Shown here: positions 34,544-37,670 of the stretch, one piece after another
Layout: each line of letters starts with the position of its first letter
Numbering within the stretch: the stretch's first letter is position 1
Notes under the pieces: generated by a model
Seen by the model: only the letters and a program-made list of their open reading frames with translations
Told to the model about the DNA's origin: nothing
Databases searched by the model: none
Position numbers and translations under genes: made by a program
Assembly: GCA_016215155.1 (NCBI GenBank)
Contig: JACRLQ010000021.1
Location: 1-44,651, forward strand
Source: Nitrospirota bacterium
Lineage (GTDB): Bacteria; Nitrospirota; Thermodesulfovibrionia; Thermodesulfovibrionales; UBA6898
Direction: 5' to 3'
Length of the DNA stretch: 44,651 nt

Positions 34544-35149
34544 ATGCAAATGGCCCGTATCGCGATAATCGGGTTGTCGGTCATGCTCTCCGCCGCCGAG
34601 TATACCGGGGCCGCCGGCTATGAAAAAGCGACCTTTGCGGGAGGCTGCTTCTGGTGCATGGAGCATCCGTTTGATGAGCTTCCGGGTGTGGTTTCCGTTA
34701 CCGCCGGTTATACAGGCGGTCACAAGAAAAATCCTTCTTACGAAGAGGTCTCGGCAGGGGGGACCGGACATGCCGAATCAGTGCGGATAGTGTATGATCC
34801 GGCAAAGGTCAGCTATGAGAAACTCCTGAGCGTCTTCTGGCATAACATAGACCCGACCACGAAAGACCGGCAGTTCTGCGATTCCGGCAGCCAGTACCGG
34901 AGTTCAATTTTTTATCACGGCGAGCATCAGCGCAGGCTGGCGTTGGAGTCGAAGGCGGAACTGATAAAGAGCAAGACCTTCAGGGAACCCGTCGTAACGG
35001 AGATCGTGCAGGCCGGAGAATTCTACCCTGCCGAAGAATATCACCAGCACTATTACAGGAAGAACCCGATCCGCTACAAATTCTATCGCAGCCGTTGCGG
35101 TCGCGACAGCCGGCTCAGGGAACTTTGGGGCGATGCCGCGGGTCATTGA
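34544..35149 (+). CDS. msrA: Peptide-methionine (S)-S-oxide reductase MsrA
   Basis: A 201-residue protein. A probable signal peptide (ARIAIIGLSVMLSAAEYTGAA) precedes the MsrA domain with catalytic Cys35 in AGGCFWCMEHPFDELPGV, SVTAGYTGG, GTGHAESVRIVYDP and the YHQHYY block. It reduces methionine-S-sulfoxide. If the signal is functional it works in the periplasm, which fits an ancestral exported MsrB partner upstream. AAAAGGAGG precedes the ATG. The last 35 bases overlap the convergent glycosyltransferase gene. Confidence 0.93.
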   Translation: MQMARIAIIGLSVMLSAAEYTGAAGYEKATFAGGCFWCMEHPFDELPGVVSVTAGYTGGHKKNPSYEEVSAGGTGHAESVRIVYDPAKVSYEKLLSVFWHNIDPTTKDRQFCDSGSQYRSSIFYHGEHQRRLALESKAELIKSKTFREPVVTEIVQAGEFYPAEEYHQHYYRKNPIRYKFYRSRCGRDSRLRELWGDAAGH

Positions 35150-35780
35150 AACGCGCGGACCCGAGGGTCCCGATGCTACCTTCTTTGAGATAGGACCTAA
35201 GCCCCTCAACGGTATCGATGTCCGAAAGGGCCGGCAGGCATTTGTAGCTTCTCCCTGACCGCGTGATCGCCCCGACCGTCTCCGAATAGACGTCCTCCGT
35301 GCTCCAGGGGATGTCGCGAAAAAGCACGGGCATGGGGGACTTCATCCCGATCAGGTAATAACCTCCGTCAAGGGCAGGGCCGATAACGACGTCCGCGCCC
35401 TCAAGCAGTTCAAAGGCCTGAAGGACCGTCTCTTTCGCGAGGTCCGGTATGTCGGAGCCGGTAATGACAGCCTTGTCCGCCCCGTTGTCAAACAGGCATG
35501 TGACCGCGTTATGCATCCTCTCTCCGATATCGCCGCCCCTCTGGCATATTAATTTTTCATCGGGCAGCCAGGACCCGAACTCATCGGTCCTCTCCGGGGG
35601 ACCATAGAACACAAACCGGACGTATCCGCCCGAAGGAGGCGTGGTCTGCTCCATTACGCGTTCAGTGATTTCCCTCGACAGGACCGCGGCGTCCGCGGGC
35701 CCGATATCCGCCGCAAGCCGTGTCTTGACCCTTCCCGGATCGGGGTACTTGATCATGATGCCGTAAAAGTCCCTGCTCAC
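35115..35780 (-). CDS. TIGR04282-type (rSAM/selenodomain-associated) glycosyltransferase
   Basis: About 221 residues. IMIKYPDPGRVKTRLAADIG, AVITGSDIPDL and VIGPALDGGYYLIGMKSP are typical of the DUF2064 nucleotidyl/glycosyltransferase family that is encoded beside ArsS radical SAM genes. GTG 35780 is the likely start, overlapping the upstream glycosyltransferase stop (GTGA); longer frames run into that gene. It probably takes part in building an arsenosugar or related modified sugar. The substrate has not been shown here. Confidence 0.88.
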   Translation of the reverse strand: MSRDFYGIMIKYPDPGRVKTRLAADIGPADAAVLSREITERVMEQTTPPSGGYVRFVFYGPPERTDEFGSWLPDEKLICQRGGDIGERMHNAVTCLFDNGADKAVITGSDIPDLAKETVLQAFELLEGADVVIGPALDGGYYLIGMKSPMPVLFRDIPWSTEDVYSETVGAITRSGRSYKCLPALSDIDTVEGLRSYLKEGSIGTLGSARFNDPRHRPKVP

Positions 35781-36508
35781 CGGTAATAGATCCTCGCGAG
35801 CCGGCCCGGGGCGGCGCCGCACCTGTAGAGCAGCATGACGCACTGGTTGATGGCCGCGGTCGTCACAAGCCCTTTTTTGGACCATCGCCGCGCCGACGTG
35901 GCCGCTTTTTTATCCAGGATAACGACGGGCCCCGTTTCCTTCAGCCGGCCTATAAAATCGACGTCCTCCATAAGGGGAATATTTTTATATCCCCCGATGA
36001 GCTCAAACGCGCTTTTTCTGACGAAGATGGCCTGGTCTCCATACGGCAAACAGCAGAGTTTCACGCGTAACTTCACCCATGCCTCGACGAGCCTGAATTT
36101 CCATAAGGGTGACCGGATGCTGAAGGTGAAGGCGCCCCCCGATATCGGACCCCGCTTAAGCACGGAAATCAGTTCTTCCGTCCACCCTGCCTCCAAAAGC
36201 GTGTCCGCGTGGAGGAAGACAAGGACCTCGCCTGAGGCCGCCCGCGCGCCGGCGTTCATCTGCACACCGCGGCCTCTTTCAGACAGGACGACCGCTACCC
36301 CCGGATAACTCTCCGCGAACTCCCTTGTCCTGTCGCTGCTGCCCCCGTCCGCCACAATGATCTCGCACCCGCCTCCACCGCCGAGAAGACCCTCTATGCA
36401 CCGCCTGATCCGGTCCTCCTCGTTCAGAGTCGGGATGATGACGGAGATCACGCCGGCGCGAGGGCAGGGGAAACGGACCGGAGTCAGGGGCTTACCGGCT
36501 GAATCCAT
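35777..36508 (-). CDS. TIGR04283-type (rSAM/selenodomain-associated) GT2 glycosyltransferase
   Basis: Up to 243 residues. The GT2 blocks VISVIIPTLNEEDRI, VADGGSSDRTREFAE, GRGVQMNAGA, VLVFLHADTLLEAGW and LMEDVDFIGRLKETG fit the family that accompanies ArsS and the TIGR04282 enzyme. The start is uncertain: ATG 36508 or a GTG at about 36450 just before ISVIIP. Overlaps the TIGR04282 gene, so both are made together. It is divergent from arsS, with a 194-base gap. Confidence 0.88.
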   Translation of the reverse strand: MDSAGKPLTPVRFPCPRAGVISVIIPTLNEEDRIRRCIEGLLGGGGGCEIIVADGGSSDRTREFAESYPGVAVVLSERGRGVQMNAGARAASGEVLVFLHADTLLEAGWTEELISVLKRGPISGGAFTFSIRSPLWKFRLVEAWVKLRVKLCCLPYGDQAIFVRKSAFELIGGYKNIPLMEDVDFIGRLKETGPVVILDKKAATSARRWSKKGLVTTAAINQCVMLLYRCGAAPGRLARIYYR

Positions 36509-36702: not shown

Positions 36703-37656
36703 ATGCCGAAGAAATTTGAGACAAGAGTCGAGGAAACGCTCGGCGCGCCTCTTTCAGCCGTAGACCTCCTCAGCCTTCAGGTAAATATGGGCTATAGATG
36801 CAACATGTCCTGCAGGCATTGCCACGTCTCCGCCGGACCCGGCAGGATGGAGATCATGGGAGAGGAGACCGTTGAACAGGTCCTTTTTGCGCTGAAGCGA
36901 TATGCCGTCAGAACGCTCGACATCACCGGCGGCGCGCCTGAATTGAACCCTCATTTTTCCTATCTTGTCGCAGAGGCGAAGAAGGCCGGCTGTCATATCG
37001 TCGCGCGAACGAATCTGACCGTCTTTTTTGAAAAAGGCTATGAACATCTGCCCTGGTTCTATCGCGACAACGACATAGAAATCACCGCCTCGTTCCCTCT
37101 CTACTTTGACGCGGGCGTCGACGGGGTGAGGGGAGAGGGGACGTTCGTAAAAAGCATCAGGGCGCTTCAGCTTCTCAACGGCCTCGGCTACGGAGACGGC
37201 AGGAGGAGGCTGAACCTCGTGTATAATCCTCCCGGCGCGCAACTTGCGCCTTCCCAGGAAGGGCTTGAAGAACAATACCGGCGCCTGCTTGGGGGGTATC
37301 ACCGGATTTTCTTCGACCGTCTCTATGTCTCTTTAAACATGCCTATCGGCAGATTTAAGGCCCACCTTGAAGAAACGGGTTCATCGGAAAAATATCTTAA
37401 GGCTCTGGAAGAGTCCTTTAACCCCCTGACACTCGGCGGGCTGATGTGCAGGCGCCTCATAAGTGTCGGCTGGGACGGGGCCCTCTATGACTGCGACTTT
37501 AACCAGGTCCTCGGTCTGCATCTCCCCGGGCGCTACCCGCAGCGGATTGCCGATTTTGACCTAGACCGTCTGTCGGGCAGGCGCATACGGGTAAGTGAAC
37601 ACTGTTACGGCTGTGCCGCCGGCCAGGGATCTACCTGAACGGGCGCAATCGCGTAA
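36703..37656 (+). CDS. arsS: Radical SAM ArsS-family protein, probable selenoprotein (UGA at codon 312)
   Basis: A radical SAM enzyme of the arsenosugar biosynthesis/selenodomain group (TIGR04167). The Fe-S/SAM motif is CNMSCRHCHV near the start, and the C-terminal DUF3641-like part includes GGLMCRRLISVGWDG and LYDCDFNQVLGL. The tail reads EHCYGCAAGQGST, then TGA at 37636-37638, then TGAIA and a TAA at 37654-37656. Homologues that I recall end CTAGAGSSC(or Sec)GG with Cys or selenocysteine at exactly this place. With the hairpin following the TAA, the TGA is best read as Sec, giving 317 residues. The conventional reading stops at 37638 with 311 residues. Confidence 0.85.
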
Positions 37657-37670
37657 CAGGCGGTCGCCTG
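37639..37670 (+). promoter_or_regulatory. Candidate bacterial SECIS element of arsS
   Basis: After the TGA come 18 bases and then the stem CAGGC (37657-37661), loop GGTC (37662-37665) and stem GCCTG (37666-37670). The loop is the same GGUC as in the Escherichia coli fdhF SECIS, and the loop lies 23 bases after the UGA, a spacing allowed for bacterial elements. The unpaired U that SelB contacts in fdhF cannot be placed with certainty. Confidence 0.6.

Follow-up and report, generated by a model that had tools for sequence, protein, structure and literature searches.

The question raised by this locus is whether an ArsS-type radical SAM gene, found in a 44,651-nucleotide contig of a Nitrospirota bacterium (this whole stretch is hereafter the window, and the genome from which it derives is G000), terminates at an in-frame UGA or reads that codon as selenocysteine (Sec). 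Based on the conservation of the UGA column, the read-through tail, a downstream hairpin and the decoding machinery of the genome, we propose that the gene codes for a radical SAM selenoprotein of the ArsS family (TIGR04167) in which the UGA at 37636-37638 is read as Sec, a reading to which we assign a probability of roughly 0.95. The same four lines of evidence support the proposal of the initial annotation that this codon probably specifies Sec.

An ArsS-type gene interrupted by UGA

Under translation table 11 the forward-strand open reading frame at 36703-37638 closes at the TGA at 37636-37638 and, as the initial annotation had remarked, it does so abruptly after the C-terminal motif HCYGCAAGQGST (37600-37635, forward strand), which contributes Cys301 and Cys304. 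When the TGA is translated as U the frame reads ...EHCYGCAAGQGST-U312-TGAIA-stop, in agreement with the continuation that had been described earlier, and yields a product of 317 residues ending in ...SEHCYGCAAGQGST-U-TGAIA. The tail and the TAA at 37654-37656 together occupy 37639-37656, and the complete predicted selenoprotein gene, as delimited by the domain matches, this translation and the conserved tail, would thus span 36703-37656 on the forward strand. Directly after the TAA lies a candidate SECIS-type hairpin, CAGGC-GGTC-GCCTG (CAGGC-GGUC-GCCUG in RNA; 37657-37670, forward strand), which is situated entirely 3' of the stop codon and whose first loop base falls 23 nucleotides past the TGA, precisely where it had been reported.

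The protein scores 379.5 bits over residues 21-311 against TIGR04167 (curated whole-protein cut-off 300), a family named by NCBI 'arsenosugar biosynthesis radical SAM (seleno)protein ArsS', and also matches the Radical_SAM (PF04055) and C-terminal DUF3641 (PF12345) domains of Pfam. The PF04055 match, which starts at residue 27, includes the CxxxCxxC motif C33-NMS-C37-RH-C40 (36799-36822, forward strand), which we take to be the motif binding the SAM [4Fe-4S] cluster in radical SAM enzymes. A search for solved structural relatives returned none at E 0.001. On its 5' side the gene is flanked by two divergent neighbours on the opposite strand, namely a TIGR04283 arsenosugar-type glycosyltransferase (35777-36508, reverse strand; 242.6 bits against a cut-off of 182) and a TIGR04282 arsenosugar-type transferase (35115-35885, reverse strand; 183.8 bits against 134), both likewise named by NCBI after arsenosugar biosynthesis. 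The one arsenite methyltransferase model tried, NF008823, gave no match above its cut-off in the genome (best 43 versus 263 bits), and arsenosugar is therefore used here as a family label rather than as a demonstrated pathway. Methylation may be carried out by a different enzyme, or the pathway name may be inapplicable here, and the reaction of this ArsS protein would be termed arsenosugar synthesis by family alone.

We collected homologues as 79 loci from species-representative genomes and 30 loci from 296 surveyed genomes within the phylum of the window, which after merging gave 28 distinct TGA sequences (the window included) and 71 loci with Cys at the column of position 312, these counts including related genomes and hence not representing independent events. 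An HCxxC...GS[ST] pattern is kept across the ArsS homologues, and in the 79 species-representative loci the column following GSS or GST is mostly Cys, with TGA in many members from Nitrospirota; the GST-UGA of the window gene conforms to this pattern of GSS/GST followed by Cys or Sec. The phylum survey recovered TGA-containing ArsS genes from 20 genomes belonging to several families, and one further member comes from a distant lineage (L096, Lagierella). The predicted Sec form of ArsS is common in the lineage of the window gene. That relatives would carry Cys or Sec at position 312 had been anticipated by the initial annotation, and the homologues do not naturally end at this residue, as all 71 Cys loci run on with Cys-x-Gly. 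Near the HCxxC motif, Sec312 would probably act in redox chemistry, as a nucleophile or in metal binding.

Decoding machinery and the identity of residue 312

The search for selA, selB, selD and tRNA-Sec that had been proposed together with the Sec reading recovered all four in G000, an assembly of 3.43 Mb in 101 contigs with 100% completeness. It encodes a canonical tRNA-Sec with a UCA anticodon (69.5 bits), a selB gene (368 bits versus a cut-off of 242) adjoining selA (613 bits) on contig 67, and a selD gene (343 bits; L017, G000:C87:19306-20232) with an in-frame TGA of its own in the context ...SSCAG-U-AAK. SelD, too, is predicted to be a selenoprotein here, and a hairpin lies downstream of the selD UGA. 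With this complement, SelA would form Sec-tRNA-Sec from selenophosphate supplied by SelD; when the ribosome reaches the UGA at 37636-37638, SelB together with Sec-tRNA-Sec would bind the hairpin at 37657-37670 and insert Sec312, and translation would end five residues further on, at the TAA at 37654-37656.

Across the phylum, selA above cut-off was found in 18 of the 20 genomes with TGA-containing ArsS versus 10 of 31 with Cys-containing ArsS (Fisher p = 5e-5, a value that overstates the independence of the sample because the counts include related genomes). Both TGA-ArsS genomes without selA (G217 and G084) possess tRNA-Sec; a full selB above cut-off was not found in either, and their lack of selA and full selB fits a missing contig. 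No intact canonical tRNA-Sec was found in three other TGA-ArsS genomes, G032, G272 and G276. The first of these is 100% complete, has selA and a tRNA-Sec-shaped tRNA-Cys, and retains a 5' half of the canonical tRNA-Sec that ends in the anticodon loop beside an unrelated stretch (L175, G032:C5:10020-10059), along with a 3' piece on a different contig (L177, G032:C12:17966-17990); only 3' fragments are present in G276 and G272 (L174 and L176). We read these fragments as the result of mobile islands integrated at selC and/or of assembly loss, and not as proof of absence. In a further genome a tRNA-Sec 3' end (G113:C12:226105-226130) is located about 3 kb from the intact copy. Such remnants suggest that, in this phylum, mobile islands integrate at selC.

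In addition to the canonical tRNA-Sec and to an ordinary tRNA-Cys located separately on contig 87, G000 encodes a tRNA (G000:C79:23364-23453; L002 1500-1594) that matches the tRNA-Sec family at 53.7 bits (gathering threshold 47) and displays both Cys identity elements, a GCA anticodon and U73 (a T before the encoded CCA). Similar genes occur in G032 (L143), G182 (L151) and G217 (L156), and by sequence G270 (L152) and G254 (L153) also carry a tRNA-Sec-shaped tRNA-Cys. In the literature the selC* tRNA-Cys is called tRNA-ReC, and tRNAs of this type can carry Cys to SECIS-marked UGA codons via SelB. The selC* class has been reported from Nitrospirae and other anaerobes (PMC7609411), and a paper that PMC8762117 cites points, by its title, to such tRNAs bringing Cys to SECIS-marked UGA.

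This raises the alternative that SelB delivers Cys-tRNA from a selC*-type tRNA, so that the ArsS UGA yields Cys in all or some of the product, with Sec being used where selenium is available. The presence of the tRNA-Sec-shaped tRNA-Cys over and above the ordinary one speaks in its favour, and Cys would be tolerated at residue 312, given that it is the residue found there in other homologues; the GCA anticodon, however, mispairs with UGA, and G000 has the canonical UCA tRNA-Sec as well as selA and selD. Since all three are present Sec should dominate, and we consider it improbable that Cys is the usual or an alternative product; because a tRNA-Sec-like tRNA-Cys is co-resident, partial incorporation of Cys at 312 is nonetheless the only rival of appreciable probability. 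A specific two-way use of the codon, with Sec inserted via tRNA-Sec in the presence of selenium and, under selenium shortage, Cys via the tRNA-Sec-shaped tRNA-Cys, is likewise an unlikely scheme, under which one SECIS-marked gene would make both the Sec and the Cys forms of an enzyme. The genomic complement of G000 thus points to Sec, rather than Cys, as the probable residue inserted at 312.

The read-through tail and the hairpin

The UGA might instead be a genuine stop, as the closure of the frame under table 11 would have it, in which case the protein would end at Thr311 and the tail and hairpin would be remnants or a terminator. The TGA genes, however, share a tail of the form x-Gly-x-x-x-stop, with the stop exactly six codons past the UGA in 25 of 28. 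Gly is found at +2 after the UGA or Cys in all 27 TGA sequences compared (L096 being left out) and in all 71 Cys sequences, and in the TGA set its codon has zero entropy at the first two bases and 1.58 bits at the third; at codons +3 and +4, too, variation is greatest at the third base. As the Gly is invariant while only the third base of its codon varies, the tail is translated. The read-through tail is under constraint at the protein level, a pattern that an untranslated trailer would not be expected to show.

Taken as a single sequence, the window hairpin is only modestly unusual: mononucleotide shuffles give p = 0.047 for loose placement and p = 0.008 for the conserved placement, a 61-nucleotide fold at the hairpin has z = -2.5, and the chance of such a structure is about 0.01-0.05. 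The case therefore rests on comparison. A G+C-rich stem of at least 5 pairs occurs at the conserved spacing in 26/28 TGA genes versus 0/71 Cys genes, a contrast far beyond chance that is descriptive and not a pre-set test, as the stop-to-hairpin threshold was chosen after the score of the window itself had been seen. By a looser measure (stem score of at least 11, any placement) 27% of the Cys genes also have hairpins, and therefore only the placed hairpin discriminates. In the alignment of 27 TGA sequences, 92.6% of stem cells are paired, an underestimate given that MAFFT set the stems of L024, L029 and L031, which have 7 positions, one column off; sliding the partners by up to 3 columns lowers the value to 25-51%. 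One shuffle in 500 reached the covariation score of the hairpin. The third stem pair exchanges A-U, G-C, G-U and C-G among the TGA sequences; this covariation is real but thin, because double changes occur at only one of six pairs. The contrast of presence and absence is the stronger evidence. Coding cannot explain the conservation of the hairpin, because a stop codon precedes it in nearly all members.

A few members depart from the usual arrangement. In L036 and L105 the first UGA is the predicted Sec codon and a second UGA six codons on is the stop codon, directly ahead of the hairpin, and in L028, L121 and L122 the usual stop before the hairpin is missing and the frame continues into or through it. 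A scan of the hairpin against Rfam found no family covering it; a sub-threshold match to RAGATH-25 (19 versus 49 bits) was taken as chance. The possibility that the hairpin is a terminator was ruled out by the missing U-run, which was found on neither strand, and by the lack of any such hairpin in the Cys homologues.

The hairpin thus goes with the UGA and not with the family, variation past the UGA is confined to third positions and homologues have Cys in its place, so that a genuine stop at this codon is very improbable and is already contradicted by the comparative data. Genome-wide reassignment of UGA to another residue, as might be envisaged from an in-frame stop codon at the conserved Gly position in the Gracilibacteria homologues L093 and L094 (consistent with the code of that group, in which UGA specifies Gly), is the least credible alternative and is ruled out for G000 by its selA and selB matches in open frames free of internal UGA, by ordinary neighbouring genes, which suggest that UGA ends genes in this genome in the canonical way, and by the UGA stops of the relatives L036 and L105.

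Comparison with known selenoprotein systems

The SECIS of E. coli fdhF has a GGUC apical loop starting 18 nucleotides after the UGA. The window hairpin resembles SECIS elements of this type in being short, in its GGUC apical loop and in its position downstream of the UGA, but differs in that its stem has no bulged nucleotide, its loop starts at 23 nucleotides and it lies in the 3' untranslated region. As the hairpin in nearly all of the UGA-containing ArsS genes is past the stop and its conservation free of coding constraint, they offer clean material from which the bacterial SECIS of this lineage can be defined. The tRNA at G000:C79:23364-23453 resembles the selC* tRNA-Cys (tRNA-ReC) in its GCA anticodon, U73 and tRNA-Sec-like body, a likeness that bears on a possible decoding partner and not on the ArsS gene itself. 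Its co-residence makes this gene a natural test case for Sec and Cys decoding of one UGA.

The locus is of value mainly for annotation and for providing SECIS hairpins that lie outside coding regions. As the initial annotation had warned, calling genes with UGA as a stop truncates this protein, removing its last six residues including the likely reactive one, and it also trims the UGA-containing relatives, which amount to 27 further distinct sequences. Two reviews (PMC13188914, PMC9312934) include TIGR04167 (rSAM_SeCys) in their tables of predicted prokaryotic selenoprotein families, with AAR34688.1 as the listed selenoprotein, and the newer of the two gives the motif as GxxU. The window gene resembles this family in domain make-up, in its C-terminal GxxU, in having homologues with Cys in the same column and in its TIGR04282 and TIGR04283 neighbours, and may differ in its hairpin, which lies wholly past the stop codon. 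Because the family is already tabulated, the gene is best regarded as a clear further example of a catalogued selenoprotein family and not as a new kind.
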